From assembly GCA_017627115.1 (NCBI GenBank), contig JAGAHK010000323.1:1-15354 (forward strand): a stretch of DNA of 15,354 nt. The letters are read 5' to 3'. Both the position numbers and the translations under genes were made by a program. Below, one piece after another: positions 1-14,546 of the stretch. The notes below the pieces were generated by a model, which did not search any database, was not told the DNA's origin, and worked only from the letters and a program-made list of their open reading frames with translations. Each line of letters begins with the position of its first letter. The stretch's first letter is position 1. The DNA is from Bacillota bacterium. Lineage in GTDB: Bacteria > Bacillota > Clostridia > Lachnospirales > CAG-274.

Positions 1-320
1 AAAGTTTGCTGGAGGCCTCCGCAGACCTCGGTGCAAAGGGTGTATCGACTTTTTTTAGAATTATTTTACCCCTTACGGCAAGCGGTATATTTTCGGGCTC
101 GATAATGGTATTTATTCCCTCTCTCGGATACTTTTTTGTATCGGATATATTGGGAGGAGGAAACTCTGATATAATAGGCAACCTGATAGAAAGGCAGTTC
201 CAAAGCGGTAACAACTGGCCGCTGGGTGCAGCGTTATCTATGGTTCTTATTATTATAACTTTGCTTTTGGTAAAGTTATATCAAAAATGCGGCGGAGATA
301 TGGAAAGTCTGGGGGTGTAG
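1..320 (+). CDS. potB: Polyamine ABC transporter permease PotB, C-terminal part (partial at left edge)
   Basis: This is the C-terminal end of an inner-membrane permease for spermidine/putrescine import. The frame is open to the left edge (first full codon at 3), so the real start lies outside the window. The visible part begins at the EAA loop that docks on the ATPase (EASADLGAKGVSTFF, then PLTASGI). It continues into a hydrophobic helix with FIPSLGYFFVSDILGG, a PotB-like stretch, and ends with a last membrane helix (LGAALSMVLIIITLLLVK) and a short charged tail. The stop at 318-320 is followed by potC after 3 bases, so the two permeases are translationally coupled. The ATPase gene potA is expected upstream but cannot be seen. 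The assignment to polyamines rests on the potC-potD-patA context. Confidence 0.9.
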   Translation, partial: SLLEASADLGAKGVSTFFRIILPLTASGIFSGSIMVFIPSLGYFFVSDILGGGNSDIIGNLIERQFQSGNNWPLGAALSMVLIIITLLLVKLYQKCGGDMESLGV

Positions 321-323
321 TGT

Positions 324-1121
324 ATGACAAGAAAAAACAAAAAAAGGCTGCAAAAAGGCTTTTCGATTGTATACTGCTGTCTGATATATTTGTTTTTGTT
401 CCTGCCTATAACGGTTATAGTAACAAATTCATTCAATGCAACAACTTCCAAGCCATATATGACATGGAAAGGTTTTTCGACAGATTGGTATGGAAAGCTG
501 TTTGACAATACGGCATTGCTTGAATCTTTCGGCAACACAATGTTTATCGCAATAGTGTCAACACTGCTGGCGACAGCAATAGGAACCCTTGCGGCGGTAG
601 GTATGTATAAATATAAGTTCAAGGGTAAATCTGTTATAGATGCACTGTTATACATACCCGTAGTAATACCCGAAATAGTGTTGGGTATATCGCTTTTGAC
701 ATTGTTTTCAAACACCAATATACCAAGAGGGACATTGACACTTGTGCTTGCTCATACAACTTTCAGCATACCGTTTGTTGTATTTAATATAAGAGCAAGG
801 CTTTCGGGATATGATAAATCTATAGAAGAAGCATCTATGGATCTGGGTGCGGGACGGGTAAAAACATTTTTCAATATTACTCTTCCCGTACTTGCACCGG
901 GAATATTTGGCGGTGCGGTACTTGCGTTCACTCTATCCATAGATGATGTAATAATCAGTTACTTTACAAACGGTCAGACAAAAACATTTCCGCTGAAAGT
1001 AATGGAAAGTATAAAAAGCGGCGTATCACCCGATATAAATGCATTATCTGCACTTATACTTATCGGAACGATAATCTTTGTTGTGATAACACAATCGGGC
1101 GTTTTAAGTAGGAATAAATAA
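324..1121 (+). CDS. potC: Polyamine ABC transporter permease PotC
   Basis: This is the second integral-membrane subunit of a spermidine/putrescine importer, partnering PotB, the ATPase PotA and the binding protein PotD. At 265 residues it has the normal family length. A basic N-terminus (MTRKNKKRLQK) precedes the first helix (about 13-35), and about six hydrophobic segments follow. The ATPase-docking EAA loop is clear at about 168-193 (IEEASMDLGAGRVKTFF, then PVLAPGI). The stretch AFTLSIDDVIISYFTNG at about 201-217 is typical of PotC. Start ATG 324 lies 3 bases after the potB stop, and the next gene potD follows after 14 bases with an AGGAGG site. Function is assigned from motifs and gene order; whether it prefers putrescine or spermidine cannot be told from the permease. 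Confidence 0.95.
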   Translation: MTRKNKKRLQKGFSIVYCCLIYLFLFLPITVIVTNSFNATTSKPYMTWKGFSTDWYGKLFDNTALLESFGNTMFIAIVSTLLATAIGTLAAVGMYKYKFKGKSVIDALLYIPVVIPEIVLGISLLTLFSNTNIPRGTLTLVLAHTTFSIPFVVFNIRARLSGYDKSIEEASMDLGAGRVKTFFNITLPVLAPGIFGGAVLAFTLSIDDVIISYFTNGQTKTFPLKVMESIKSGVSPDINALSALILIGTIIFVVITQSGVLSRNK

Positions 1122-1135
1122 AGGAGGAGACTAAT

Positions 1136-2209
1136 ATGAAAAAAATTATAGCATTATTTACGGCAGCAGCAATGACATTGTCATTTACAGGCTGCGGAGG
1201 CGGTACTTCGGGCGAAACGGGCACAGGAGGAACGGCATCTGTGGGAGAAACCTTGAATTTATTTGTGTGGACGGAATATGTTCCGCAAAGCGTTATTGAT
1301 GATTTTACAAAGGAAACGGGTATAAAAGTCAATGTATCTACCTATTCATCAAACGAGGATATGCTTGCGAAAGTAAAGGCAGAATCGGAAGGAGCGTTTG
1401 ACATTATCCAGCCGAGCGACTATATGGTAGAACAATGCATCAATCAGGGCATTGTACAGGAAATAGATCTTTCAAAAATACCGAATTTTTCAAATATTGA
1501 CGAAAGTTATAAAAAACCTTCTTATGATCCCGAAGGTAAGTATTCCGTTCCTTATCTCGGGGGACTGGGCGGTATTGCGGTAAACAAAAAAATGATAACG
1601 GATGAGATCACCTCTTACGCAGACTTGTTCAAGCCCGATTATGCGGGACAGCTTGTGGTGCTTGATGATTTCAGACCCGTGATAGGAATTGCATCGGAGA
1701 GTCTGGGATACGATCTTAATGAGACTGACCCCAAAAAACTGGCTGATGTTAAAGAACAGGTAATGAAACTTAAAAACAATATAAAACTTTACGACAGTGA
1801 TTCTCCCAAATCGGCACTTATTGCGGGTGAATGTAATTTGGGTTTCTGCTGGAGTGCTGAGATCGCACTTGCAAATGCCGAAAATCCCGATATAGAGATA
1901 GTTTTCCCCGATGAAGGCGCATTTTTGTTCCTTGATAACTGGTGCATAACTTCGGGTTCTAAAAATATTGAGGCAGCACATAAGTTTATTGATTATATGT
2001 GCAGACCCGAAGTAATGCAGAAAGTTCTGGAGGAGTTCCCGTATCTTTGTCCAAACAAAGCGGCTGTTGAACTTATGGGAGAGGAATATACATCAAATCC
2101 CGCAAAGAACCCTCCTGCCGAGGTCATAGAAAAAGGTAATTATAATACAAACCTTGATAATGACACCATAGCGATCTACGACGAAATATGGACGGAGTTA
2201 AAAAAATAG
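1136..2209 (+). CDS. potD: Polyamine-binding lipoprotein PotD
   Basis: This is the extracellular substrate-binding subunit of the importer, 357 residues. It has a lipoprotein signal peptide: MKK, a hydrophobic core, then FTGC with the lipid-modified Cys at 20, followed by a Gly/Thr-rich linker, as expected for a Gram-positive anchor. Ligand-site segments of the PotD family are recognisable. LFVWTEYVP carries the Trp and Tyr seen near the start of E. coli PotD, PSDYMV has the Ser/Tyr pair, CWSAEIA has a Trp, and FLFLDNWCI has the Asp that binds an amine. The ribosome site AAGGAGGAG lies just upstream of ATG 1136. The gene sits between potC and the putrescine aminotransferase, which suggests putrescine as a main substrate; spermidine is equally possible from sequence alone. 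Confidence 0.93.
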   Translation: MKKIIALFTAAAMTLSFTGCGGGTSGETGTGGTASVGETLNLFVWTEYVPQSVIDDFTKETGIKVNVSTYSSNEDMLAKVKAESEGAFDIIQPSDYMVEQCINQGIVQEIDLSKIPNFSNIDESYKKPSYDPEGKYSVPYLGGLGGIAVNKKMITDEITSYADLFKPDYAGQLVVLDDFRPVIGIASESLGYDLNETDPKKLADVKEQVMKLKNNIKLYDSDSPKSALIAGECNLGFCWSAEIALANAENPDIEIVFPDEGAFLFLDNWCITSGSKNIEAAHKFIDYMCRPEVMQKVLEEFPYLCPNKAAVELMGEEYTSNPAKNPPAEVIEKGNYNTNLDNDTIAIYDEIWTELKK

Positions 2210-2255
2210 TGTTTTATAATTTTTTATAAGTTTTTATTGAAAGGAAGCGTTTTAA

Positions 2256-3608
2256 ATGGGTTACAGCGAAGTAAGCAAAGATTTGGAAAAGGTTTTGAAG
2301 TTTATCCACAGCGATAAACTTACAGACAAAGAAAAGGAGACTATTACCAACGATACGGTAGAGTATTTTGATAAATATGTAAGCCCCGGCTGGCTTAAGT
2401 ACAGGAAATCCGTTTCTACCAATTCCGCAACGGTAGAATGGACAGATCATGACAGTATTTGTGAGGGTTTGTACGGCGAAGAGTTTATAGATTGTCTCGG
2501 CGGTTTTGGTATTTACACCTGCGGTCACAGAAATCCGCAAATAATGGACACAGTAAAGGCACAGCTCGACCATCAGGCGCTGCACTCGCAGGAACTTCTC
2601 GATCCCTTGCGAGGATACCTTGCAAAGGCTGTTGCGGACATTACCCCGGGTGACCTTAAACACTGTTTCTTTACAAACGGAGGTGCCGAAGCTGTTGAAA
2701 TGGCACTTAAACTTGCAAGAATCGCAACGGGAGGACGCTGGTACATTTCAACGGTTGGTGCATTCCACGGAAAGAGTATGGGTGCTATATCAATGGGCGG
2801 CAAAAATACATACAGAGTGCCTTATACACCTATGGTACAGCAGGTACAGCACGTTGAATACGGCAATGCCGAAGACACAAGAAAAGCCATAAGAAATCTT
2901 ATAGCAGTCGGTGAAAAGGTAGCTGCCGTAATAGTTGAGCCCATTCAGGGCGAAGCAGGAATTATAGTTCCTTCGGACGGATATTTAAAAGAATTGAGAG
3001 AAATATGCGATGAATACAATGTAGCTCTTATATTTGATGAGATACAGACAGGCATGGGCAGAACGGGTACTATGTGGAGATGTGAATATGAGGGCGTTAC
3101 ACCCGATATTATGACATTCGGCAAGGCATTCGGCGGCGGTATAATGCCTATAACGGGTATAATATGCAGACCGCAAATGTGGACACAGGAACTGATAGAC
3201 AACCCTTGGCTTCTCGGCTCTCCCACATTCGGCGGTAACCCTGTATGCTGTGCGGCCGCACTTGCAACGATCAAATTTATGGTAGACAACGATATCCCGG
3301 GTGAGTGCAGCCGAAAGGGGGTTATTATCAAAGAAGGTCTTGAAAAGTTAAAAGCAAAGTATCCGACAGTTATTGATGATGTAAGAGGTACGGGACTTAT
3401 GCTTGCGGTTGAGTTCTGCAGATCCGATGTGGGTTACAGTGTTGCAAAAGGTCTTTTTGCAAGGGGTGTAATGACAGCGGGAACACTTGTAAATGCCAAG
3501 TGTATACGTTTCGAGCCTGCCGCTGTTATAACAGAAGAACAGATAGCGGCAGTGATAGAAAGAATGGACGAAGCACTGGCAGATACCAAAGCAGAATTTG
3601 GCTTGTAA
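2256..3608 (+). CDS. patA: Putrescine aminotransferase (class III, PLP-dependent)
   Basis: This enzyme transfers an amino group from putrescine to 2-oxoglutarate (or pyruvate), giving 4-aminobutyraldehyde, which cyclises to pyrroline. It is cytosolic, 450 residues. It follows E. coli PatA/YgjG closely throughout, including the N-terminal region YFDKYVSPGWLKYRKSV, EFIDCLGGFGIYTCGHRNP and the distinctive LHSQELLDPLR at about 109-119. PLP-site features are NGGAEAVE (about 141-148), FHGKS (170-174), DEIQTGMGRTG (261-271, Asp261 contacts the pyridine nitrogen) and Lys290 in TFGKAFGGG, the Schiff-base lysine. Start ATG 2256 is preceded by AAAGGAAG. The gene lies 46 bases after potD, so import and first catabolic step are probably co-expressed. 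Ornithine aminotransferase is a relative, but the YgjG-type signatures argue for putrescine or cadaverine. Confidence 0.93.
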   Translation: MGYSEVSKDLEKVLKFIHSDKLTDKEKETITNDTVEYFDKYVSPGWLKYRKSVSTNSATVEWTDHDSICEGLYGEEFIDCLGGFGIYTCGHRNPQIMDTVKAQLDHQALHSQELLDPLRGYLAKAVADITPGDLKHCFFTNGGAEAVEMALKLARIATGGRWYISTVGAFHGKSMGAISMGGKNTYRVPYTPMVQQVQHVEYGNAEDTRKAIRNLIAVGEKVAAVIVEPIQGEAGIIVPSDGYLKELREICDEYNVALIFDEIQTGMGRTGTMWRCEYEGVTPDIMTFGKAFGGGIMPITGIICRPQMWTQELIDNPWLLGSPTFGGNPVCCAAALATIKFMVDNDIPGECSRKGVIIKEGLEKLKAKYPTVIDDVRGTGLMLAVEFCRSDVGYSVAKGLFARGVMTAGTLVNAKCIRFEPAAVITEEQIAAVIERMDEALADTKAEFGL

Positions 3609-3626
3609 AATTTATATATCCCCTAT

Positions 3627-3676
3627 GCGGCGGCTTGTCTATAGACTATGTATTGCATCTTTGGGCAAGCTGCCGC
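3627..3676 (+). other. Intra-operon stem-loop between patA and the aldehyde dehydrogenase gene
   Basis: Arms GCGGCGGCTTG (3627-3637) and CAAGCTGCCGC (3666-3676) pair over 11 positions with a single G-U wobble. Four more pairs inward (two of them wobbles) extend the stem to 3641/3662. A perfect 10-base palindrome, GTCTATAGAC, lies at 3637-3646. The downstream bases (TTATATTGAAAC) are not a real U-tract, so this is a poor terminator. It may be an mRNA processing or stability element that sets the ratio of upstream to downstream products. It occupies most of the 115-base gap, the longest gap inside this operon. Confidence 0.5.
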
Positions 3677-3704
3677 TTATATTGAAACATAAAAAGAAAT
3701 TTTC

Positions 3705-3714
3705 GGAAAGGGAA
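3705..3714 (+). promoter_or_regulatory. Ribosome binding site deciding the start of the aldehyde dehydrogenase gene
   Basis: GGAAAGGGAA precedes two possible in-frame starts, GTG 3718 and ATG 3724. Aligning AAGG (3708-3711) to the anti-SD puts the end of the SD window about 9 bases before ATG 3724 but only about 3 before GTG 3718. ATG 3724 also gives the usual family N-terminus (MELKLNYIDGEW). An ATG at 3714 is out of frame and soon meets a stop. Confidence 0.6.
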
Positions 3715-3723
3715 TGAGTGTTT

Positions 3724-5205
3724 ATGGAGTTAAAACTTAATTATATAGACGGTGAATGGAAAGAAGCCTTGGGCGGCGGTAAACGAGAAGTAATAAACCC
3801 CGCAACGGGAGAATTACTTGCCTATACCACGGAAAGTACGGAAAATGATACAATAGAAGCTATTGCCGCAGCGAAAAGATCGTTCTACAAAACAAGACAG
3901 TGGCGTGATACGGATGGCCAGGACAGATCGGATATGCTGCTTAAAATAGCGGATATAATGGAAAAATACAAGGATGAATTGGCAAAACTCGATACACTTG
4001 ACAACGGCAAGCCTTTAAGAGAATCCGAAGGCGATGTAAGTGATGCAATACATTGTTTCAGATATTATGCAGGGCTTATAACTGCGCCAAGCGGATATAC
4101 TTACGAGGTAAATAACGGTTTCGGTAAAATGCACTCATATACCGTTGCCGAGCCTGTTGGTGTCATCGGTCAGATAACACCGTGGAATTATCCGCTGCTT
4201 ATGTCGGTATGGAAACTTGCTCCCGCTCTTGCAGCGGGAAACTCGGTGGTTTTCAAACCCAGTTCAAACTGTCCTCTTTCTACGGTAAAATTATTTGAGA
4301 TATTTGAAGAAGCGGGGCTTCCGAAAGGCTGTGCAAATCTGGTTCTCGGTTCGGGCGGCTCGGTAGGCCATACTATTGCCGCTTCACCCGATGTGGATAT
4401 GGTGACTTTTACGGGGTCAACAAAAGTCGGACAGTCGATAATGTCCGATGCCGTGGGCAATCTTAAAAAGATAGGCCTTGAACTTGGAGGCAAATCGCCC
4501 AATGTGATATTTGCCGATACAGATATTGACAGTGCTGTGGAATGGGCTATGATAGGTACATTTTTTAACCAGGGACAGGTTTGTTCGGCTTGTGCAAGAA
4601 TATATGTACAGGAAGAAATACACGATGAATTTGTGGAAAAATTGGTAAAAAAGGCAGAAGCAATGACCATAGGCAACGGACTTGATAACCCCGATATAGG
4701 TCCGTTAGTTTCGGAAAGTCAAATGAACAAGGTGCTTGGCTACATAGAAAAAGGCAAGGCAGAGGGCGCAAAACTTATGTGCGGCGGTTACAGGGTGACC
4801 GACGGAGAACTTGCCAAAGGATATTTTGTAAGACCTGCGGTTTTTGATAACTGCACACAGGATATGACGATAGTAAAAGAGGAAATATTCGGCCCCGTAT
4901 GTTCGATAGTTACTTTTAAAACAGAGGAAGAGGCAATAGCTATGGCAAATGATACACAGTACGGTCTTGCAGGTGCGATATTCACAAATGACAGCGCAAG
5001 GGCAATAAGGGTTATGAAAGAAATTCGTGCAGGCATTATGTGGATAAATTGCTGTGAGCCCACATTCAATCAGGCTCCATGGGGCGGTTATAAAATGAGC
5101 GGTATCGGCAGAGAACTGGGGGTATACGGTCTGGAAGAATATCAGGAGATAAAGCAGGTCAATATCAATCTTAATAAAGGCGTGCTTGGATGGTATGAAA
5201 ATTAA
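3724..5205 (+). CDS. Aldehyde dehydrogenase, probably 4-aminobutyraldehyde dehydrogenase
   Basis: This NAD(P)-dependent aldehyde dehydrogenase (493 residues from ATG 3724) is predicted to oxidise 4-aminobutyraldehyde to GABA, the step after PatA. Catalytic residues are present: Asn155 in ITPWNYP, Lys178 in VVFKPS, Glu253 in LELGGKSPN and the nucleophile Cys287 in NQGQVCSA. TFTGST at 228-233 is the coenzyme-fold glycine motif, and KEEIFGPV and the C-terminal APWGGYKMSGIGRELG are classic. The last motif, preceded by a Cys-rich WINCCEP, places it with betaine-aldehyde / aminoaldehyde dehydrogenases (GbsA and PatD relatives) rather than with succinate-semialdehyde dehydrogenases. Substrate choice is inferred from its position between patA and gabT; betaine aldehyde remains possible, but no choline gene is seen nearby. 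The gap to gabT is 21 bases. Confidence 0.9.
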   Translation: MELKLNYIDGEWKEALGGGKREVINPATGELLAYTTESTENDTIEAIAAAKRSFYKTRQWRDTDGQDRSDMLLKIADIMEKYKDELAKLDTLDNGKPLRESEGDVSDAIHCFRYYAGLITAPSGYTYEVNNGFGKMHSYTVAEPVGVIGQITPWNYPLLMSVWKLAPALAAGNSVVFKPSSNCPLSTVKLFEIFEEAGLPKGCANLVLGSGGSVGHTIAASPDVDMVTFTGSTKVGQSIMSDAVGNLKKIGLELGGKSPNVIFADTDIDSAVEWAMIGTFFNQGQVCSACARIYVQEEIHDEFVEKLVKKAEAMTIGNGLDNPDIGPLVSESQMNKVLGYIEKGKAEGAKLMCGGYRVTDGELAKGYFVRPAVFDNCTQDMTIVKEEIFGPVCSIVTFKTEEEAIAMANDTQYGLAGAIFTNDSARAIRVMKEIRAGIMWINCCEPTFNQAPWGGYKMSGIGRELGVYGLEEYQEIKQVNINLNKGVLGWYEN

Positions 5206-5226
5206 AATGTTATGGAGTGAGATATT

Positions 5227-6591
5227 ATGTTAAAAAAAGAAGATCTGCCAATTATTGTCACGGGAAAAGTTCCGGGAGAAAAAGCAGCAAAACTGCTTGA
5301 AAGAAGAAATAATGCGATCCCATCGGCACTTTGCGGAAAGACATACCCTGTGTGTATTGCAAAGGGCAAAGGTGCGTTGATAGAGGATGTTGACGGAAAC
5401 AGATTTCTGGATTTTATAGGCGGTGTAGGCGTTCTTAATATCGGCTATTCCAATGATGAAGTCATTGAAGCGGTAAAACAACAGTCGGAAAAATATTTTC
5501 ATTGCATTTTTAATGTTGTTGCACACGAAGGATATATCGAGCTTTCGGAAAAACTCAACGAATTAATGCCTTGCAGAGGCAAGGAGAAAAAAACATACTT
5601 TGCAAACAGCGGAGCAGAAGCGGATGAAAATGCAATAAAAGTTGCCAAGGCTTATACGGGAAGAAAAGGTATAATATGCTTTTCGGGAGCTTTTCACGGC
5701 AGAACGAATCTTGCAATGGCTCTTACGGCAAAGAAAGCGTATTCAAAAGGTATGGGACCGTTTCCATCGGATATTTACCGTGCCGAATACCCATATCTTT
5801 ACAGAGCGCCAAAAGGCTTTTCAAGAACCGAAGCCATAGATTATTATTTGGAAAAACTTACCTGTCTTTTTGATGAAGCTGCACCCGCAAGCGATATAGC
5901 GGCTATGATAATCGAACCGATCCAGGGTGAGGGCGGCTTCATTCCCGCACCTATCGAATGGGTAAAGGCTGTCAGAAAAATATGTGACGATAACGGTATT
6001 TTAATGATAGCTGATGAGGTACAGTGTGGTAATTGCAGAAGCGGCAGATATTACGCAAGTGAATACTGGAAAGAAGCAGGAGCAGCACCGGATATTATAA
6101 CAACAGCCAAATCTTTGGGGGCAGGCCTTCCTATAAGTGCAATAACGGCAAGCAAAGAAATTATGGATAGCGTTCCTGCGGGTACGATAGGCGGAACATA
6201 TTGCGGTAATCCTCTTTCCTGTGCATCGGCTTTAAAGGCGATGGAAATATATAAACGTGATAATTATGCAAAAAAAGCCGAAGATATTGGTTTAAAAGTA
6301 AGGTCATTCTTTGAAGAACTTATGAAAGATAATGAGGAAATAGGCGATATACGAGGTATCGGTTCCATGCTCGGTATTGAGTTTGTTAAAACCAAAGAGG
6401 GAAAAGAGCCTGCTTCTCAACTTGTATCGGACATTATTGCAAATGCTTTGCAAAACGGTCTGCTGCTTGAAAATGCAGGAAGTCACGGTAATGTTATCAG
6501 ATTTCTTGCACCGCTTTGCATAAGTGACGAACAGCTTGAAACGGGTCTTGAAATATTTAAAAAGTCTTTTATGCAGGCAAAGGAGAAATAA
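5227..6591 (+). CDS. gabT: 4-aminobutyrate (GABA) aminotransferase
   Basis: This class III PLP aminotransferase of 454 residues is predicted to convert GABA and 2-oxoglutarate to succinate semialdehyde and glutamate. It aligns with E. coli GabT over its whole length: FLDFIGGVGVLNIGY (about 60-74), ANSGAEADENAIKVA (126-140), FSGAFHGRT (152-160), IIEPIQGEGGF (228-238), Asp263 in IADEVQ, Lys295 in TTAKSLGAG (Schiff-base lysine), and GGTYCGNPLSC (322-332). It is a clear paralogue, not a duplicate, of the upstream PatA. An oddity is the segment after DEVQ: the family normally has [S/T]GxGR[T/S]G, whereas here it is CGNCRSG (267-273), giving a Cys-x-x-Cys next to the active site. The next gene starts 1 base after its stop, with its ribosome site AGGAG inside gabT. 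Confidence 0.9.
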   Translation: MLKKEDLPIIVTGKVPGEKAAKLLERRNNAIPSALCGKTYPVCIAKGKGALIEDVDGNRFLDFIGGVGVLNIGYSNDEVIEAVKQQSEKYFHCIFNVVAHEGYIELSEKLNELMPCRGKEKKTYFANSGAEADENAIKVAKAYTGRKGIICFSGAFHGRTNLAMALTAKKAYSKGMGPFPSDIYRAEYPYLYRAPKGFSRTEAIDYYLEKLTCLFDEAAPASDIAAMIIEPIQGEGGFIPAPIEWVKAVRKICDDNGILMIADEVQCGNCRSGRYYASEYWKEAGAAPDIITTAKSLGAGLPISAITASKEIMDSVPAGTIGGTYCGNPLSCASALKAMEIYKRDNYAKKAEDIGLKVRSFFEELMKDNEEIGDIRGIGSMLGIEFVKTKEGKEPASQLVSDIIANALQNGLLLENAGSHGNVIRFLAPLCISDEQLETGLEIFKKSFMQAKEK

Positions 6592-6592
6592 A

Positions 6593-7723
6593 ATGAATTT
6601 TAATTATTATTTGCCTGTAAACCTGATATTCGGATGCGGTGTAATTGAAACAGCGGGAAATGTCGCAAAAAAATACGGCAGTAAAGCCCTTGTTGTAACA
6701 GGAAAAGCGAGCACTAAAAAAACGGGACTTCTTGACAAAATTATCACGATTTTAAAAAAATCGGAAATATCAAGTGTTGTTTTTGATGAGGTTGAACCAA
6801 ACCCGCTGACCACAACAGCACATAAAGCAGCCGAAATAATAAAAGCCCAAAATTGTGATATGGTTATCGGTGTCGGCGGCGGAAGCATAATGGACTGTGC
6901 AAAAGCTGCTGCATTTATTGCTTGTAATGACGGAGATATAAACGAGTATATTTTTAACAAAAAAACAAGCGAAAAAGCATTGCCTGTCATTCTTATACCA
7001 ACGACCTGCGGTACGGGAAGCGAGGGCAACGGATTTGCTGTACTTACAAATCCCGAAAACGGTGATAAAAAATCATTGAGATGCAATGCCATAGTTCCGA
7101 AATCATCTATAATTGATCCCGATTGTATGAAAACAATGCCCAAACACATACTTGCATCTGTAGGATTTGATGCGCTGTGCCATAACATAGAAGCCTATAC
7201 ATCAAAAATTGCCCAGCCATTTACCGATATATTGAGTTTATATGCCATAAAACTTATTTCCGATGATCTTGTAAATGTATACAACGACCCGGAATATGCA
7301 GAGGGTTGGAACAATATAACTCTTGCAAGTACGATAGGCGGTATGGTCATAAACACGGCAGGTGTAACTCTCGCTCATGGCATGGAACATCCTGTAAGCG
7401 GATTGAAAAATGTTGTTCACTGAAAAGGTCTTGCAGCTTTGACACCTGTTGTAACAGAAGCATCTTATGTCGGAAATACAGCAAAATATACGCAAATAGC
7501 AAAAACTATGGGCGGAAATGAAGCTGCCGATTGTCCGAGAATAATAAGAAAACTTTTAAAGGCTATAGATTTGGAATGCACTCTTTCCGAACTCGGTATA
7601 CAGGAAAAAGACATTCCTTGGCTGACTGAAAACTGTATAAAAGTATCATCAGCGAATATAGCAAATAATCCCGTTGTATTCTCATACGAGGAAATTGTGG
7701 AACTGTATAAAAAATCATTATAA
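6593..7723 (+). pseudogene. Iron-containing alcohol dehydrogenase, interrupted by in-frame TGA (candidate 4-hydroxybutyrate dehydrogenase)
   Basis: This group III metal-dependent alcohol dehydrogenase is predicted to reduce succinate semialdehyde to 4-hydroxybutyrate with NAD(P)H. ATG 6593 has AGGAG 7 bases upstream. Family motifs are intact: GVGGGSIMD (93-101, dinucleotide binding), PTTCGTGSE (136-144), and metal ligands Asp193, His197, His262 and His276 (with His266 in MEHPVSG). Codon 277, directly after His276, is TGA (7421-7423). The same frame then continues without interruption for 99 codons (KGLAALTPVV, then PWLTENC and VFSYEEIVELYKK) to TAA at 7721-7723. The family has HGxGLA here, so TGA replaces an expected Gly (GGA to TGA is one base). 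Total length, 376 codons, is normal. Without readthrough the product is 276 residues and lacks the C-terminal helical part. Nonsense mutation or sequencing error is most likely; recoding is not excluded. Confidence 0.85.
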
Positions 7724-7726
7724 TTT

Positions 7727-7762
7727 TGCAAGAACGCGGGATAAAACTTGCATTTTATTCTT
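7727..7762 (+). terminator. Weak terminator-like hairpin after the dehydrogenase gene
   Basis: TGCAAG (7727-7732) and CTTGCA (7747-7752) form a perfect 6-bp stem with a 14-base loop, followed by TTTTATTCTT. It lies 3 bases after the stop codon. The stem is short and the loop large, so termination would be leaky. Its position between the catabolic operon and a fresh consensus promoter supports the role. Confidence 0.4.
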
Positions 7763-7789
7763 GACAAACATCCGATAAAATGATATTAT
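7761..7789 (+). promoter_or_regulatory. Consensus sigma-A promoter for the ATP-grasp operon
   Basis: The -35 box TTGACA (7761-7766) matches consensus exactly. It is separated by 17 bases from the -10 box TATTAT (7784-7789), one mismatch from TATAAT. Predicted transcription start is about 7796-7798, 76-78 bases before the first gene. It marks the ATP-grasp cluster as its own transcription unit, separate from the polyamine operon. Confidence 0.85.
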
Positions 7790-7797
7790 AATTGCAT

Positions 7798-7845
7798 AAC
7801 GAGGGTGTTTCGTCTGTATAGACGGGGCATCTTCGTTTTTGTTTT
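7798..7845 (+). terminator. 5'-leader stem-loop with U-rich tail (candidate attenuator)
   Basis: Arms 7798-7815 (AACGAGGGTGTTTCGTCT) and 7820-7837 (AGACGGGGCATCTTCGTT) pair at all 18 positions around a GTAT loop. Five of the 18 pairs are G-U, which fold in RNA but do not form a DNA palindrome, so this is an RNA element rather than an operator. The 3' arm runs into TTTTTGTTTT (7836-7845), the layout of an intrinsic terminator. The stem begins at or within about two bases of the predicted +1. It could cut transcription short just after initiation, or protect the 5' end of the mRNA. No leader peptide or known riboswitch is visible between it and the ATG at 7874. Confidence 0.65.
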
Positions 7846-7873: not shown

Positions 7874-9193
7874 ATGGCAGCAGATGGATTATACAAGTAT
7901 TCGGAACAGATAAATGAATTATTGGCACGTTACGGCGTCAAATTCGGCATATACAAAAACAATATTTTTAAAGAACAGCTTTTTCCGTTCGACACTATAC
8001 CGAGGGTCATAAAAAAGTCTGAATTTGATTATTTAGAGCGTGGTTTGAAGCAGAGAGTTACGGCACTTAACGAATTTATAAAGGATATTTATTCCGATAA
8101 AAAGATAATTCGTGACGGTGTTGTACCGGAGGAATTTGTTTATTCGGGCAGCGGCTATCTTGCACAGTGCGAGGGCGTCTGTCCGTCAAAGGGTGTATAT
8201 ACGCATATTTCGGGCATTGACCTTGTGCAGGGCAAAGATAAAAACTGGTACATATTGGAAGATAACCTGCGCATACCGTCGGGTGCGTCTTATCCTATGA
8301 TAGCAAGGGATATTTGCAGAAGAAGTTCACCTGCGACCTTTGAAAAATATCACATAGAAGACAACAGAAATTATGCAAAACTCCTGCGCAGGACAATGGA
8401 CTATGTAAACACGGGCGGTCATACGGTGATACTTTCGCCCGGCAGATATAATGCCGCCTATTTTGAACATTCCTATCTTGCCGAGCAGACGGGCGCACAC
8501 CTTGTAACGGGCAGTGAACTTACGGTCGAAAACGACAGATTGTATTTCATAGATTATTCGGGCAAAAAAGAACAGGTCGGTGCAGTTTACCGCAGGATCT
8601 CGGACGAATACCTCGATCCGATGAACTTCAATAAAGAATCCGTTATCGGCATACCGCATATTTACGATATTTACCGAAAAGGCAATGTTGCGCTGATAAA
8701 TGCACCCGGGAACGGTGTTGCCGATGATAAAGGCATATATTATTTTGTGCCCAAAATGGTCAAGTATTATTTAAACGAAGAGCCTATTTTGCAGAACGCG
8801 CCCACATATCTCCCCTATTATAAGGAAGATATGAAATATGTGCTTGATAACATAGACACACTTGTTTTGAAAGACGTTGCGGAAGCGGGCGGTTACGGCG
8901 TAGTGTTCGGCAGCAAAATGACAAAGACGGAAAAAGAAGAATTCATTGTACTGCTCATAAGAGAACCGCGCCGATTTATTGCACAGGAAGTTATTGATTT
9001 TCTTGATATAGATATTTACGATGACGGAGAAATTGTGCCGAGAAAAGCCGATTTAAGGGCTTTTGTGCTTATGGCGGATGAACCGCTGGTGTGGAAAAGC
9101 GGACTGACAAGGTTTTCGAGAGACCCCGATTCGTTTATAGTAAATTCATCGCAGGGCGGCGGCTTTAAAGACACATGGGTTTTAAGTGAATAG
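7874..9193 (+). CDS. Circularly permuted ATP-grasp protein (COG2308, DUF404/DUF407 type)
   Basis: This is a predicted ATP-dependent carboxylate-amine ligase of 439 residues with the ATP-grasp motifs in permuted order. Seen in sequence: FPFDTIPRVI (37-46), LERGLKQRVTALNEF (54-68), THISGIDLV (110-118), LEDNLRIPSG (128-137), YRRISDEYLDPM (239-250), GVADDKGIYYFVP (281-293), VLKDVAEAGGYG (331-342), PRKADLRAFV (389-398) and the C-terminal NSSQGGGFKDTWVL (424-437). All are hallmarks of the family, including the acidic and basic residues expected to bind Mg-ATP. ATG 7874 is chosen because GGGAGTGG sits about 6 bases upstream and MAADGLYKYSEQ is a family-like start. A GTG at 7805 would lie inside the leader hairpin. 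Family members occur with Alpha-E and transglutaminase-like proteins, as here; the substrate is unknown. Confidence 0.93.
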   Translation: MAADGLYKYSEQINELLARYGVKFGIYKNNIFKEQLFPFDTIPRVIKKSEFDYLERGLKQRVTALNEFIKDIYSDKKIIRDGVVPEEFVYSGSGYLAQCEGVCPSKGVYTHISGIDLVQGKDKNWYILEDNLRIPSGASYPMIARDICRRSSPATFEKYHIEDNRNYAKLLRRTMDYVNTGGHTVILSPGRYNAAYFEHSYLAEQTGAHLVTGSELTVENDRLYFIDYSGKKEQVGAVYRRISDEYLDPMNFNKESVIGIPHIYDIYRKGNVALINAPGNGVADDKGIYYFVPKMVKYYLNEEPILQNAPTYLPYYKEDMKYVLDNIDTLVLKDVAEAGGYGVVFGSKMTKTEKEEFIVLLIREPRRFIAQEVIDFLDIDIYDDGEIVPRKADLRAFVLMADEPLVWKSGLTRFSRDPDSFIVNSSQGGGFKDTWVLSE

Positions 9194-9204
9194 GAGGCGA
9201 TAAT

Positions 9205-9900
9205 ATGGCAATTTTATCATTTTCAAACAGTGACAGACTATATTGGCTGGGGCGGTACAGCGAAAGAGTTTATACAACATTACGGTCATTTGCCAAACAT
9301 TTTGATACCATGATAGACCTGAAGCCCGAGGAATACGCCGATTTCTGCAAAAAACAGGATATTCCCAATATCTACACATCTAAAGAGGATTTTTCAAGGC
9401 GATATTGTTTTGACGAAAACGACCCAAACTCGATATACTCAAACCTTATGCGTGCCTATGATAATGCAATAGTACTGCGCGAGGAAATAGGCAGCGAAAC
9501 TTTGGCTTATATTCAGCTTGCGGTCTACGCAATGAACAAGGCAAAAATCTCCGATGCCCCTCTTTTGGAACTGCAGAAAGTTGTTGACAATATTGCAGCA
9601 TTTTGGGGAATGGCGGATGACAGAATAGACGAAGCAAACGTGCGCAGTATTATAAAACTCGGCAAGCGTGTTGAACGTATTGACTTGTATGCAAGAATGA
9701 ATGCAAGCCCCGATGAGATAAGGCGGGAGATACACAGATTAAGTGCGAGGGTGCCGCAGACGGGTCTGAAATACTCCGCCTCAGTAATAGTACATCTTAA
9801 CTATATGGCGGCAAAGACTGAATTGGACTATCCAACCATTGTAAAAGAAGTGGAATCACTTATAGATTTTACGGAAATAAGACCTGTAATAGGCTTATAG
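9205..9900 (+). CDS. Alpha-E domain protein (COG2307, DUF403 type), short form
   Basis: This all-alpha protein of 231 residues belongs to the Alpha-E family, the standard partner of the permuted ATP-grasp protein. The N-terminal signature is clear (SDRLYWLGRYSERVYTTLR, residues 9-27). A helical segment with LREEIGSETLAYIQLA follows, matching the family's R-x-x-[IL]-S-x-E-x-W region, and later IKLGKRVERIDLYARM. The molecular role is not established; it may hold the substrate or a carrier for the ligase. From memory, family members are usually about 300 residues or more, so this copy is compact, with a shortened C-terminal half rather than a broken frame. AGGAGGCG precedes ATG 9205, 11 bases after the ligase stop. 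In other genomes the two proteins can be fused, which supports a direct complex. Confidence 0.88.
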   Translation: MAILSFSNSDRLYWLGRYSERVYTTLRSFAKHFDTMIDLKPEEYADFCKKQDIPNIYTSKEDFSRRYCFDENDPNSIYSNLMRAYDNAIVLREEIGSETLAYIQLAVYAMNKAKISDAPLLELQKVVDNIAAFWGMADDRIDEANVRSIIKLGKRVERIDLYARMNASPDEIRREIHRLSARVPQTGLKYSASVIVHLNYMAAKTELDYPTIVKEVESLIDFTEIRPVIGL

Positions 9901-9914
9901 GATGATGATGCGGT

Positions 9915-10694
9915 ATGAAAAAATTAAATTTCAGCTATCATATGCAGCTTACATTTGAATATCCCGTAAGGGATCATCATTTTACTCTGCGCTGTTTTCC
10001 GCCAAACGACGCAAGACAGCAAATTCTGACCGAAAGCATAGAGATTTATCCAAAGCAATACAGCAGCACACAGACAGATTCTTTCGGCAACCGCTGTGTT
10101 TACGGAACAGCGGATCAGGCGCATAATTATTTTGCCGTAGATGTAAACGGAGAAGCCGTTGTTGATTCGGAAAAGAATATAACGGAAGATGCGTACAAAA
10201 CAGGCTTGTTCAGATACCAAACGGAACTTACCCGGGCGGGAGAAGGTATAATGGGGTTTTACAATAAAATAAAACGGTTCGGGCATCCTTTGGAAACAGC
10301 AAAACATTTTATGAATAAACTGTTTGAGAACTTTGTGTATGAACAAGGCGCAACAAACATCCTTACAACGGCGGAAGAAGCATTTACACTCGGGAAAGGC
10401 GTGTGTCAGGATTATGCGCATATTCTTATTTCACTTTGCAGGCTTGAAAAAATACCCTGCCGTTATGTTGCGGGTATGATGACGGGAGAGGGAGCAACAC
10501 ACGCTTGGGCAGAGGTATTTGACAACGGCATTTGGTATCTTCTTGATCCGACACACAACAGGCTTGTTGATGATACCTATATAAAAATTTCATCGGGCAG
10601 GGATGCTAAGGACTGTGCAATAAATCAAGGGGTTTTTATTGGCGGAGGAAAACAAAAACAGGAAGTCAGAGTTACAGTTGAGGAAATATTATGA
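9915..10694 (+). CDS. Transglutaminase-like cysteine protease/amidase (COG1305)
   Basis: This is a papain-fold transglutaminase-like protein of 259 residues. It has an N-terminal beta domain (TFEYPVRDHHFTLRCFP, about 13-29, matching the family's 'bacterial transglutaminase-like N-terminal' region) and a C-terminal catalytic domain. The triad is visible: Cys164 in GKGVCQDYAH, His196 in GATHAWAEV and Asp211 in YLLDPTHN. SSGRDAKDCAINQGVFIGG (226-244) is a typical ending for the subfamily found with permuted ATP-grasp proteins. Such enzymes can cleave or form amide bonds; this one may process the product of the ligase or transfer it to a protein. There is no signal peptide, so it is cytosolic. 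The ribosome site is modest (AGGA, 12 bases before ATG 9915). It overlaps the next gene by 4 bases (ATGA). Confidence 0.9.
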   Translation: MKKLNFSYHMQLTFEYPVRDHHFTLRCFPPNDARQQILTESIEIYPKQYSSTQTDSFGNRCVYGTADQAHNYFAVDVNGEAVVDSEKNITEDAYKTGLFRYQTELTRAGEGIMGFYNKIKRFGHPLETAKHFMNKLFENFVYEQGATNILTTAEEAFTLGKGVCQDYAHILISLCRLEKIPCRYVAGMMTGEGATHAWAEVFDNGIWYLLDPTHNRLVDDTYIKISSGRDAKDCAINQGVFIGGGKQKQEVRVTVEEIL

Positions 10695-11677
10695 GTAAAA
10701 TCGTTGATAAAATATTGACGGTCGCAAGCGTTCAGCTTCCCGTCGATGAAGAACTGAAAATAAAAAAGCACCGCATAATGCCGTTTGATTCGGATGCAAA
10801 ACTGCTTGAAAAACACGGCAGGCGTATAAGCATAGTTACGGGCATACACGGCGACGAACTGGAAGGTCAGTATGTCTGCTTTGAACTGTCAAGGCGTATA
10901 TCGGAACATCCCGAATATTTGAAAGGCGTTGTGGATATATACCCTGCAATGAACCCCTTTGGCATTGACAATATAACAAGGGGCATACCTGCGTTTGATC
11001 TGGATATGAACCGTATATTTCCCGGAAACCATAACGGAGATATGAACGAGCATATTGCAGCGGAAATAATAAAGGATATGAAGGGTACGAGTCTTTGTCT
11101 TGATATACACGCAAGCAATATTTTTTTGACGGAAGTACCGCAGATAAGGATAAACACATTGCATAAAGATGTGCTTGTTCCCATTGCAATGAAGTCCAAT
11201 GTCGATTTTATTTGGGTACACGGCGCAAGCACGGTACTTGAATCGACTTTTGCTTACAGCCTTAACAGCCGCGGCATAAACACACTTGTTGTTGAAATGG
11301 GCGTTGGTATGCGCATAACCAAAGATTACGGCGATCAGCTTGTTGACGGTATCTTTTCACTTATGAAAGACATGGAGATATGGTCGGGCAAAGTGTCCGA
11401 GGTACGCAGACCGATTTTAAGCAACGATGAAAGCGGAAATGATGTTTATTATCTTAACGCACCTTTTTCGGGAATTTTTTTTAAAGAAAAAAATCACGGC
11501 AGCATTGTAAAAAAAGGTGATATTATAGGCAGAATTGTAGATCCTCTTTCGGGCCGACTGCTTTGTGAGATAACTGCACCGGGCGACGGTTGGCTGTTCA
11601 CTATAAGAGAATATCCCGTTGTTGAGGACGGTTCGCTTATGGGAAGAATTTTAAAACATACGGAGGTACAGGCATGA
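10691..11677 (+). CDS. AstE/AspA-family zinc hydrolase (succinylglutamate desuccinylase / aspartoacylase-like), active form
   Basis: This M14-type zinc amidohydrolase has 328 residues. Family members remove an acyl group from an amino acid amide. Residues expected for activity are all present: zinc ligands His53 and Glu56 in GIHGDELEG and His140 in CLDIHAS, substrate-binding Asn-Arg in DLDMNRIFPG (103-112) with Arg97 before it, and general base Glu202 in LVVEMGVG. The tail from about 255 (APFSGIF, GSIVKKGDIIGRIVDP, ITAPGDGWLF) is the beta-barrel, biotinyl-like domain common in the AstE/AspA group. ATG 10691 overlaps the transglutaminase stop by 4 bases, and its own stop overlaps the next gene by 4. 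The natural substrate cannot be read from sequence; an N-acyl or peptide product of the upstream ligase is a reasonable guess. True AstE is unlikely because no arginine-succinyl pathway genes are near. Confidence 0.88.
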   Translation: MSKIVDKILTVASVQLPVDEELKIKKHRIMPFDSDAKLLEKHGRRISIVTGIHGDELEGQYVCFELSRRISEHPEYLKGVVDIYPAMNPFGIDNITRGIPAFDLDMNRIFPGNHNGDMNEHIAAEIIKDMKGTSLCLDIHASNIFLTEVPQIRINTLHKDVLVPIAMKSNVDFIWVHGASTVLESTFAYSLNSRGINTLVVEMGVGMRITKDYGDQLVDGIFSLMKDMEIWSGKVSEVRRPILSNDESGNDVYYLNAPFSGIFFKEKNHGSIVKKGDIIGRIVDPLSGRLLCEITAPGDGWLFTIREYPVVEDGSLMGRILKHTEVQA

Positions 11678-12606
11678 AAAGCGAAATACTATACAAAATA
11701 AACGGCTTGTACAGGGATGATTTCCGTGTCAGGGGCTATCGCTTCGGCAAGGGTGAAAAGTCGGTCTGCATTATGGGCAGTATGCGAGGAAACGAGTTTC
11801 AGCAGATATATGTCTGTTCTCAGCTTATACAAAAACTGAAACGCCTTGAAGAAAAAGGCAGGATAAAAAGCGGGATACTTGTGATCCCCTGCGGAAACCC
11901 TTATTCGGTCAATGTCAAAAAGCGTTTTTGGACGATAGACAACACGGATATAAACAGAATGTCCCCGGGTTATTCGCTTGGTGAGACCACTCAGCGAATA
12001 GCTGCGGGTATTTTTGAGAACATCAAGGACTATAAATACGGCATACAATTTGCATCGTTTTATATGCCCGGAGATTTTGTTCCACAGGTAAGAGTAATGA
12101 AAACGGGCAGCGAGGATGTTGAACTTGCAAAAAAATTCGGGCTGCCCTATGTAGTTCTGCATAATCCTAGACCTTTCGATACCGCAACACTTAATTATAA
12201 CTGGCAGATATGGGAAACGGCAGCTTTTTCGATCTATACAACAAGCACAAGTGCAATAGATAAAACAAGTGCAAAACAGGCTGTTGATGCGGTCTTGAAT
12301 TTTCTTTCAAAGCAAGGCATTATTGAATACAAAGGCTACGAGGGCTATCTTTCACGGGTGGTTGAAAACAGCGATCTTGTAAACGTAAGAACTGCCTGTG
12401 CAGGATTTTTTGAAAAACTTGTGAGTGCGGGAGAAAAAGTTGAAAAAGGTCGGCTTCTTGCAAAAATAGCAGACCCTTATACTGCCGAGATAAGGCAGGA
12501 AATAATATCGCCGATAGATGGCATTGTGGCCTTTTCCCATAACGAGATCATGGCATATCAAAACACGGCGGTTTATAAATTGATAGCGGAGGATGATGTT
12601 ATATGA
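11674..12606 (+). CDS. AstE/AspA-like paralogue lacking zinc and catalytic residues (predicted pseudoenzyme)
   Basis: This 310-residue protein aligns with the gene just upstream over its whole length: YVCSQLIQKL against YVCFELSRRI, IPCGNPYSVN against YPAMNPFGID, TDINRMSPG against DMNRIFPG, FVPQVRV against EVPQIRI, and a matching C-terminal beta-barrel (AGFFEKLVSAGEKVEKGRLLAKIADP). The catalytic residues are gone. HGDE has become RGNE (Arg38 for the first His), the second zinc His is Ala127 by alignment, and the general base Glu falls at Tyr188. Only Glu41 and the substrate-binding Asn-Arg remain. The frame is intact, with ATGA overlaps on both sides, so it looks maintained rather than decaying. 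It may be a regulatory or structural partner of the active paralogue, or a binding protein for the same ligand. That it is catalytically dead is inferred from my own alignment by eye. Confidence 0.82.
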   Translation: MKSEILYKINGLYRDDFRVRGYRFGKGEKSVCIMGSMRGNEFQQIYVCSQLIQKLKRLEEKGRIKSGILVIPCGNPYSVNVKKRFWTIDNTDINRMSPGYSLGETTQRIAAGIFENIKDYKYGIQFASFYMPGDFVPQVRVMKTGSEDVELAKKFGLPYVVLHNPRPFDTATLNYNWQIWETAAFSIYTTSTSAIDKTSAKQAVDAVLNFLSKQGIIEYKGYEGYLSRVVENSDLVNVRTACAGFFEKLVSAGEKVEKGRLLAKIADPYTAEIRQEIISPIDGIVAFSHNEIMAYQNTAVYKLIAEDDVI

Positions 12607-13301
12607 AACCTTTTATCGGCGTAATGCCACTTTATGATATAGAGAAAGACAGTTTGTGGATGATACCCGGATATTTGGACGGCATTATCAACACGGGCGG
12701 GATACCCGTTATCTTGCCTTTATCGACAGACAAGGAAATGCTGAAAAGTTTTGCAAAAAGATTTGACGGATTTCTGTTTACGGGCGGACAAGATGTCGAT
12801 CCTGCTTTGTACGGTGAAGAAAAAATAGATACCTGCGGTGAAGTCTGCAAAGAACGCGACGAAATGGAAAAGATATTGCTTGAATACATAATAGAAGCCG
12901 ATAAGCCGCTTTTAGGTATCTGCCGCGGCATACAATTTGTAAATGCAGCTTTGGGCGGTACATTGTATCAGGACTTAAAAACACAGCACTCATCAAGCAT
13001 TGAACATACGATGAAACCGCCGTATAACAGAACGGTGCATTATGTTTCCGTGATAGATAATACACCCCTATCCAAAATAGCAAACAGCACAAATATCGGT
13101 GTAAACAGCTATCATCACCAAGCTGTAAAAGAACTTTCCCCCTTGCTTAAACCTATGGCAGTAGCGGACGGTCTTGTCGAGGCCGCCTATATGGAGGACA
13201 AGAAATTCCTGTGGCTTGTTCAGTGGCATCCCGAGCTATCCTTTGAATCCGATGAAAATGCCGCTGCACTTTTCAAGGCTTTGGTGGATGCCTGCTTGTA
13301 A
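12603..13301 (+). CDS. puuD: Gamma-glutamyl-GABA hydrolase-like class I amidotransferase (PuuD family, peptidase C26)
   Basis: This 232-residue enzyme has the class I glutamine amidotransferase fold. PuuD hydrolyses gamma-glutamyl-GABA to glutamate and GABA in the glutamylated putrescine pathway. Signatures are FLFTGGQDVDPALYGE (57-72), the nucleophile Cys107 in LLGICRGIQ, NSYHHQAVK (168-176) and the His209/Glu211 pair in VQWHPELS. The GGQDVDP and NSYHHQ motifs are typical of PuuD and related gamma-glutamyl hydrolases and set it apart from amidotransferase subunits. ATG 12603 overlaps the previous stop by 4 bases (ATGA). None of the other Puu genes (PuuA ligase, PuuB oxidase, PuuC) is in the window. 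This leaves open that the hydrolase acts on a conjugate made by the permuted ATP-grasp ligase. The family assignment is firm; the exact substrate is not. Confidence 0.87.
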   Translation: MKPFIGVMPLYDIEKDSLWMIPGYLDGIINTGGIPVILPLSTDKEMLKSFAKRFDGFLFTGGQDVDPALYGEEKIDTCGEVCKERDEMEKILLEYIIEADKPLLGICRGIQFVNAALGGTLYQDLKTQHSSSIEHTMKPPYNRTVHYVSVIDNTPLSKIANSTNIGVNSYHHQAVKELSPLLKPMAVADGLVEAAYMEDKKFLWLVQWHPELSFESDENAAALFKALVDACL

Positions 13302-13319
13302 AATTCAGAGGTGATATAA

Positions 13320-14546
13320 ATGGACGAATACTCATATCTTTTGTTTATTGCAATAATACTGATGTCAACAAAGGTCGTAGGGCTTATGACCGAAAAGATA
13401 CATATGCCGCAGGTGGTCGGCGCACTTTTGGCAGGGCTTATTCTCGGCCCTTCCGTACTCGGACTTGTGACCGAAAGTGATTTTTTGACCAAATCATCGG
13501 AAATAGGTGTCATTTTGCTTATGTTTCTTGCGGGACTTGAAACCGACCTTGACGAATTGAAAGCAAACGGAAAGGCATCTTTTGTTGTTGCACTTTTGGG
13601 AGTTTTACTGCCCCTTGCAGGAGGATTCGGTGTGTATTACCTTTTCTTTCCAGATATTGTACGCACAGATCCTCAAGGTGCATTAAAAGGTATTTTCATT
13701 GGTGCAACACTTACTGCGACTTCGGTCAGTATTACCGTTGAAACCTTGCGCGAAATGGGTAAATTACATGGTGCAATGGGGACAACGATACTGGGTGCAG
13801 CAATAATAGACGACATATTCGGAATAATCGTGCTGACCGTGATCGTTGGTTTGAGCGGTCCCGGTGAAAATATCTTTCTTGTTCTTCTGCATATTGCCGA
13901 ATTTTTTGTGCTGACTGCCATTATAGGAATACTTATATCTTTTATAAAAAAGAATTTTATACACACAGTAAAAACAAGTCATCGTATAAGCATATATGCA
14001 CTTACAATTATGTTTATGATGAGTTATGCCGCCGAAAGATTTTTTGGCGTTGCCGATATAACAGGTGCATATTTTGCGGGCATACTGCTCTGTAAATATG
14101 GTGTTAGAAATTATATAAATAATAAAGTTTCAAAGTTAAGTTATCTGTTCTTTTCGCCTATATTTTTTGCAAGTGTAGGCTTAAAAGCGGACATAAGCGG
14201 CATAACTCCACGTCTTATAGCATTTGCATTTGCACTTGTTATAACAGCAGTAATGACAAAAATGATAGGCTGCGGATTGGGTGCAAAAATATTCAAATTT
14301 AATAAAAAAGAAGCTGCTGCTATCGGTATAGGTATGGTATCGCGCGGTGAGGTGGCTCTTATTGTGGCACAGAAAGGTGCTGCTGCAAACCTGCTTGAAC
14401 CCGCCATGTTTTCACCCATAGTTATAATGGTCATAGCAACAACTCTTTTTACTCCCATATTTCTTAAATTGGTACTTAATAATGCGGGCGGCGGTGATAC
14501 AGTCAGCAATAAACTTGCCGAAGCCATAGCAGATCCGAGCGAATAA
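13320..14546 (+). CDS. Cation/proton antiporter, CPA2 family (NapA/GerN/KefB-like membrane domain only)
   Basis: This is an integral membrane antiporter of 408 residues with about 12-13 hydrophobic segments. Family features are PQVVGALLAGLILGPSVLG (30-48), LLMFLAGLETDLDEL (66-80), the unwound-helix stretch ATLTATSVSITVETL (129-143), and the ion-binding double aspartate Asp164-Asp165 in GAAIIDDIFG, typical of electrogenic CPA2 exchangers. Further on are GAYFAGILL and VSRGEVALIVAQ. It ends after the membrane domain with a short tail and lacks the TrkA-N nucleotide-binding domain of KefB/KefC, so it resembles NapA or GerN. Na+, K+ and H+ are candidate ions. GAGGTGAT gives a strong ribosome site, and the 18-base gap from the puuD-like gene implies co-transcription. 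Its role in the operon is unclear: export of a charged product or simple ion balance. Confidence 0.9.
   Translation: MDEYSYLLFIAIILMSTKVVGLMTEKIHMPQVVGALLAGLILGPSVLGLVTESDFLTKSSEIGVILLMFLAGLETDLDELKANGKASFVVALLGVLLPLAGGFGVYYLFFPDIVRTDPQGALKGIFIGATLTATSVSITVETLREMGKLHGAMGTTILGAAIIDDIFGIIVLTVIVGLSGPGENIFLVLLHIAEFFVLTAIIGILISFIKKNFIHTVKTSHRISIYALTIMFMMSYAAERFFGVADITGAYFAGILLCKYGVRNYINNKVSKLSYLFFSPIFFASVGLKADISGITPRLIAFAFALVITAVMTKMIGCGLGAKIFKFNKKEAAAIGIGMVSRGEVALIVAQKGAAANLLEPAMFSPIVIMVIATTLFTPIFLKLVLNNAGGGDTVSNKLAEAIADPSE

Follow-up and report, generated by a model that had tools for sequence, protein, structure and literature searches.

A conserved five-gene ATP-grasp, Alpha-E, transglutaminase and AstE/AspA core in Clostridia, apparently part of a nitrogen-assimilation regulon

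A stretch of 15,354 nucleotides from a Bacillota bacterium (Clostridia, Lachnospirales, CAG-274; assembly GCA_017627115.1, contig JAGAHK010000323.1), here called the window, carries seven consecutive genes on the + strand (7874-14546): a circularly permuted ATP-grasp, a short Alpha-E protein and a transglutaminase-like protein, together termed the trio, followed by two AstE/AspA-family proteins (AstE1 and AstE2), a PuuD-like C26 hydrolase and an antiporter. A preliminary description had taken all seven as a single operon. By comparison of gene neighbourhoods the conserved unit is the first five genes, not seven, and the leader RNA that precedes them seems to make the operon part of a nitrogen-assimilation regulon. 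We give about an even chance to the view that this five-gene module, with C26 as an accessory, would run within that regulon and carry out ligase and hydrolase chemistry under nitrogen limitation.

Gene order and distribution

The loci compared are the best 80 of at least 557 confirmed ATP-grasp relatives from one scan of species genomes, most of them under titles naming Lachnospiraceae or Clostridiales, two under Treponema and one under Synergistales. ATP-grasp, short Alpha-E, transglutaminase-like, AstE1 and AstE2 genes follow one another in this fixed order, all five at full length (at least 85% of the length of the window's gene), in 65 of these loci, and some of the remaining 15 are cut by a contig end, carry a split frame or contain masked bases. 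C26 accompanies the core in 10 of the 80 (directly downstream in six, directly upstream in two and more distant in two), and the antiporter and a complete polyamine gene set are each present in one, the near-identical L012; these three counts are lower bounds, because many loci end at contig edges. The neighbour counts led us to reject both the seven-gene unit and the polyamine genes as conserved parts. Of the neighbourhood first described, the tie between the trio and two AstE/AspA proteins stands, far beyond chance, and the part concerning the PuuD-like protein and the antiporter mostly falls.

A few loci depart from this order. The trio is present without AstE alongside at L039 and L055, foreign genes are interspersed among the core genes at the Treponema locus L027, and an apparent transglutaminase-AstE1 fusion at L080 was rejected, being caused by masked bases. 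The ATP-grasp of genome G017 (L005) shows a single in-frame TAG within an otherwise conserved frame.

In the window all seven open reading frames were confirmed with the coordinates and names first given to them, and Pfam agrees with every name. The core consists of the ATP-grasp (7874..9193; CP_ATPgrasp_2, PF14403, 446.7 bits, and CP_ATPgrasp_1, PF04174, 416.2), Alpha-E (9205..9900; PF04168, 77.7 bits), the transglutaminase-like protein (9915..10694; Transglut_core 67.6, Bact_transglu_N 51.2), AstE1 (10691..11677; AstE_AspA_cat 75.8) and AstE2 (11674..12606; AstE_AspA_cat 48.3), all on the + strand, as are the accessory C26 hydrolase (12603..13301; Peptidase_C26 204.1) and the CPA2-type antiporter (13320..14546; Na_H_Exchanger 237.9), which is not conserved with the core. 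The members of the trio are adjacent in the order named, separated by 11 and 14 bp, and 18 bp lie ahead of the antiporter. The ATGA overlaps said to join the trio to the AstE proteins and C26 are real, with 4 bases shared at 10691, 11674 and 12603 along the series transglutaminase, AstE1, AstE2 and C26.

The same association is seen in a class sample of 291 genomes, in which ATP-grasp and Alpha-E occupy the identical seven genomes and strong AstE2 matches occur in ten, including all seven with the trio (four further weak AstE matches were not counted as AstE2). An AstE1-like match adjoins AstE2 in every one of these ten genomes, three of which lack the trio; in genome G280 AstE1 is an open frame of 312 amino acids. 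Alpha-E is found in 25 of 198 Spirochaetota genomes, and strong AstE2 is present in both that have the short type and in none of the 23 that have the long type, six of which show weak AstE-like matches that were not counted as AstE2. The Synergistales genome contradicts this pairing, as it has a short Alpha-E yet no AstE2 match. At its locus (L055, 2279-6807) a Na+/H+ antiporter-family gene follows the trio, a further case of an antiporter next to it.

The leader RNA

Ahead of the core in the window lies a sigma-70-type promoter with an extended -10 element (7761..7789, + strand; TTGACA, 17 nt, TATTAT; 11 of 12 consensus matches), directly followed by an attenuator (7796..7845, + strand; z -3.0), which comprises a terminator hairpin (7798-7837) with a T-rich tail, and then by the ATP-grasp ATG at 7874. 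The 5' arm of the attenuator can refold into a mini-hairpin with a hexaloop (TAAC-GAGGGT-GTTT). A motif search placed this element directly upstream of the core in 61 of 79 loci, and a model built from 45 of these leaders (R1, with which the window element scores 33.1 bits) added 16 loci in which it lies further upstream or had been overlooked, giving 77 of 81; it was found by neither motif search nor R1 at L034, L055, L065 and L077. At several of the added loci the element precedes amino-acid ABC importer, cytidylate-kinase-like and ArAE/FUSC-type genes that run into the core. An ArAE/FUSC-type membrane protein, which may be an exporter, is encoded within three genes of the core in 10 of the 80 loci (L067, 4721-10020, and similar), often with the cytidylate-kinase-like gene ahead of it. 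Rfam gave no match for the leader element in the window, L016, L067 or L042.

Both alternative hairpins covary among the 45 leaders. Pairing reaches 98.6% in the terminator stem, where 84 double-change cells compare with 15.9 after shuffling and at most 24 after sliding, and 95.4% in the mini-hairpin, with 20 such cells against 6.0 and at most 9; the shuffles do not preserve relatedness among the leaders. The promoter ends 5-14 nt ahead of the mini-hairpin in 30 of 61 leaders, compared with 1.7 +- 1.2 in letter shuffles.

The two Treponema ATP-grasps are placed at two positions among the Bacillota rows, where starred branches force two changes. This suggests two transfers, in which the leader would have been carried along, since it is present at both loci. 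Away from the trio, the stand-alone AstE1-AstE2 pair of L092 (2426-10741), which follows an amino-acid ABC importer, a PucR regulator and a class-III aminotransferase, is also preceded by a leader-like hairpin with a weak R1 match (E 0.0076).

A shared regulon and the ANTAR question

R1 gave 27 matches at E 0.01 in seven whole genomes, or 25 places once two antisense duplicates were removed, of which 22 are gene leaders and three are not clear leaders. The leaders stand ahead of the core (5), amino-acid ABC genes (3), Amt (3), C26 (2), glnA (2) and alanine/sodium symporters (2), and ahead of one each of glnN, a class-II glutamine amidotransferase that we read as GltB, pyrG, an FAD oxidoreductase and a PPDK_N protein; ten of the genes were named by Pfam, and the G005 glnA, the G665 symporter and the ABC and C26 genes by translation or BLAST. 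Per genome, 150 of 883-2769 first-look candidates were scored, so the list may be incomplete. In the window's own genome (G000) R1 marks the core, Amt and a plain terminator. It is because the leader is common to amt, glnA, glnN, the apparent gltB, the importers and C26 that the operon seems to us part of a nitrogen-assimilation regulon.

The same data bear on a simpler explanation, that the leader merely terminates the upstream gene in the ordinary way and that a loose model created the nitrogen link. We regard this as very improbable. Three of the 25 places do resemble plain terminators or are no leaders, and R1 was trained on these loci, but the hairpin lies downstream of a promoter in 30 of the 61 leaders, far above the shuffled count, the mini-hairpin covaries, the untrained whole-genome matches land on Amt and glutamine synthetase genes, and R1 has no match at five plasmid trio loci of other phyla.

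The part of PMC3369931 that was available describes ANTAR targets as dual hairpins, many of them ahead of nitrogen genes, and the core leader is like these RNAs in having a hexaloop mini-hairpin at the 5' base of a terminator ahead of nitrogen genes. The second hexaloop hairpin (P2), overlapping the terminator, is present; the leader may represent a reduced version of ANTAR-type antitermination, and the regulon seems ANTAR-like minus the first ANTAR hairpin. The classical dual-hairpin target was rejected: the first hairpin (P1) was not found, an initial scan saw two hexaloops in just 4 of 78 leaders, and in the 30 leaders with a promoter close ahead of the mini-hairpin there is no space for P1. 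In genome G663 an ANTAR gene follows a leader-bearing glnA on one contig.

Several observations weigh against an ANTAR-type nitrogen regulon that includes the core. A P1 hexaloop hairpin upstream of P2 is no commoner than in shuffles (7 of 61 leaders, against 7.8 +- 2.6). Loop position 1 is A in 47 of 61 leaders and G in the other 14, a further departure from the known ANTAR targets, and the constancy of G at position 4 is no test, as the search pattern required it. The search model was itself built on 45 core leaders, and pyrG, the PPDK_N protein and the FAD oxidoreductase fall outside the classical nitrogen genes. Of 28 genomes, 24 encode ANTAR domains, among them all four that lack the core, and the search found none in G000 (86% complete), G237, G382 or G461; with the domain present in core-less genomes and not found in the incomplete genome of the window, ANTAR as the antiterminator is a guess. 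Finally, R1 reaches E 0.05 or better in only two (L096 and L097) of ten more distant core loci that are not among the 80 (L010, L011, L095-L100, L107 and L108), which makes the nitrogen link lineage-limited: on this sequence evidence membership of the regulon is well supported in near relatives, and not in most of the distant ones.

The AstE pair and the chemistry of the core

AstE1 carries the zinc ligands H53, E56 and H140 and the catalytic E202 of a zinc amidohydrolase-type AstE/AspA site, plus N107-R108, in at least 97% of 74 sequences. The aligned residues of AstE2 are R38, E41, S128 and Y188, while motifs of its own kind are kept across 71 sequences. AstE2 is a conserved pseudoenzyme and so probably not a second amidase, since it retains only one of the three zinc ligands and no catalytic Glu, and a pair of active AstE enzymes, part of the several amide-cleaving activities first proposed, was rejected for the same reason. 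The two proteins are paralogous (hhalign probability 99.5, 23% identity), and AstE2 is predicted to have the AstE/AspA fold (pLDDT 89.7). One row of the AstE2-model alignment, P0001 (477 aa), contains an internal duplication, which we attribute to faulty assembly. The substrates of characterised AstE/AspA enzymes are small N-acyl amino acids or dipeptides. The two AstE proteins share the fold of CphZ/DoeB-type members of this family and AstE1 also their zinc and catalytic residues, but identity is low, the nearest NCBIfam model, DoeB, falls far short at 45.9 bits (cut-off 402.7) and the AstE2 active site is gone.

Resemblance to CphZ bears on a storage-and-release cycle with cyanophycin-like logic, in which ATP-grasp and Alpha-E would make a small isopeptide or amino-acid oligomer that the transglutaminase, AstE1 and C26 would dismantle when nitrogen is short. 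One operon does hold both ligase and hydrolases, the first match of the AstE2 model in the Protein Data Bank (PDB) is CphZ (8eip), a cyanophycin dipeptide hydrolase (E 2.6e-21), and the AstE1 profile reaches CphZ at 3e-7, chiefly in its C-terminal domain. The entries 3cdx and 3na6, however, match the AstE2 model at nearly equal E and almost equally or better by TM-score, and building a store during nitrogen shortage would be odd, the common leader suggesting co-expression with amt and glnA. It is because of this leader that we favour a role in nitrogen limitation, and storage and release seems to us unlikely.

Of the other enzymes, the ATP-grasp has a sole PDB relative by sequence, 3n6x (368 bits), and Alpha-E, with a predicted all-helical structure (pLDDT 87.7), is presumably its partner. 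The transglutaminase-like protein conserves C164, H196 and D211, which we take from family knowledge to be catalytic, as we do C107, H209 and E211 of C26, conserved in 10 sequences.

In the nitrogen-limitation role that we prefer, an antiterminator, probably an ANTAR protein, would stabilise the 5'-terminal mini-hairpin of the RNA when nitrogen is short, blocking the terminator and allowing the operon to be transcribed. The ATP-grasp with its Alpha-E partner would spend ATP on joining a carboxylate and an amine; the amide would be hydrolysed or rearranged by AstE1, helped by AstE2 as a substrate-holding or allosteric partner, by the transglutaminase and by C26, freeing amino-acid nitrogen for assimilation. 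We infer that an amine or amino-acid conjugate is the best-fitting substrate.

Relation to the Anbu operon and other trios

The Anbu operon has the identical trio in identical order, with a hydrolase-type fourth partner, and nitrogen control has been reported for trio or Anbu genes: in the portions of these papers that were to hand, mutation of ntrC in B. cenocepacia lowers trio-cluster genes 6- to 9.4-fold (PMC5491218), and Anbu expression is described as high under nitrogen starvation (PMC6376114). The latter excerpt also reports that the Y. bercovieri ATP-grasp released phosphate from ATP and that peptidase activity of Anbu was not found. The core differs in having no adjacent Anbu, with AstE1 and the pseudoenzyme AstE2 in its stead, and in its Alpha-E, which matches roughly half the profile of its family (positions 7-165 of 294) and so is not full length. 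The absence of an Anbu-type hydrolase from the preliminary gene list was borne out, as no member of the proteasome/Anbu family was found in the window or in G000, and one exceeded the cut-off in a single genome of 13 with the core, on a separate contig, with one further genome below threshold. The preliminary interpretation is therefore partly supported, holding for the AstE association and the missing Anbu, and not for the seven-gene unit or two active AstE proteins.

Plasmid trios of Deinococcus, Acidithiobacillus, Hymenobacter, Kozakia and Caballeronia likewise have ATP-grasp then Alpha-E, with a transglutaminase gene nearby, in all five cases, their ATP-grasps being ~41-44% identical to that of the window. 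They differ in that no AstE is annotated within the 8 kb flanks of the five regions, three of which have a 'putative zinc-binding metallopeptidase'. From lineage to lineage, the trio seems to exchange its hydrolase partner.

That AstE occupies the position of Anbu fits a role in protein or peptide modification, as proposed for the Anbu operon, in which the trio would tag or crosslink a protein and AstE1 would replace Anbu as an editing enzyme; tagging or peptide synthesis by the same trio is proposed in the sections seen of PMC6376114 and PMC5666114. We think this rather improbable. The small substrates of characterised AstE/AspA enzymes speak against it, no acceptor protein gene is conserved next to the core in the 80 neighbourhoods, and the leader ties the core to nitrogen metabolism. 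Elsewhere, the available text of PMC3597751 associates trio domains with urea domains in marine metagenomes, and that of PMC10206079 describes an M14/AstE family of beta-Asp-Arg hydrolases. Among titles and the beginnings of abstracts, a search by DUF and product names found no functional study of the five-gene set. In the collection of papers searched, none combines 'succinylglutamate desuccinylase', 'ATP-grasp' and 'transglutaminase'.

Flanking genes

Upstream of the promoter, on the + strand (3..7723), lie PotBCD-like genes, a putrescine aminotransferase (673 bits against a cut-off of 612), an aldehyde dehydrogenase, a GABA-transaminase-like gene and a Fe-alcohol dehydrogenase. These polyamine-type genes, like the promoter and attenuator and the loss of catalytic residues in AstE2, were absent from the preliminary description. 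They raise a putrescine/GABA pathway, which the operon would prolong with the ATP-grasp as PuuA and C26 as PuuD; the likeness to the Puu pathway lies in an ATP-dependent ligase-type gene and a C26 hydrolase next to amine catabolism genes, the same polyamine-type genes precede the core in L012, and gabT and adh relatives occur in L088 and L092. We consider this pathway improbable, as the complete polyamine set was seen in one of the 80 loci, L012, a promoter and terminator hairpin stand between the polyamine genes and the core, the window genes include neither PuuA nor PuuB, and C26 is optional and far under the NCBIfam PuuD cut-off (98.9 against 266 bits).

The Fe-alcohol dehydrogenase frame (6593-7723) is interrupted by an in-frame TGA at 7421-7423, and the corresponding frame in the near-identical locus L012/L007 is intact (399 aa). 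A RelA/SpoT-type synthetase gene lies beyond the antiporter on the - strand (14605-15354), with relatives in 8 of the 80 loci, five of them within three genes of the core. A sub-threshold CRISPR-repeat-like Rfam match at 445-481, inside the PotC gene, was taken as chance.

Conclusions

The five-gene core is real and conserved, and represents a nitrogen-linked form of a known system that has had no explanation, with a chemistry that we infer. Somewhat short of an even chance, we propose that it forms a nitrogen-acquisition pathway moving horizontally among gut Clostridia and Treponema, in which the trio would act on some nitrogen compound together with one catalytic AstE and one obligate pseudo-AstE in place of Anbu, under the control of a new minimal antitermination RNA, a single 5'-terminal hexaloop hairpin, that would also govern amt and glnA. 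A nitrogen role of the trio may be general, as is suggested by the control of the proteobacterial trio by an unrelated regulator in the excerpted text of PMC5491218. The trio has long been recognised without a product, and its five-gene form is common in gut and rumen bacteria; the AstE pair in the position of Anbu and the leader shared with nitrogen genes now name a condition, nitrogen limitation, together with hosts and enzymes for direct functional testing.

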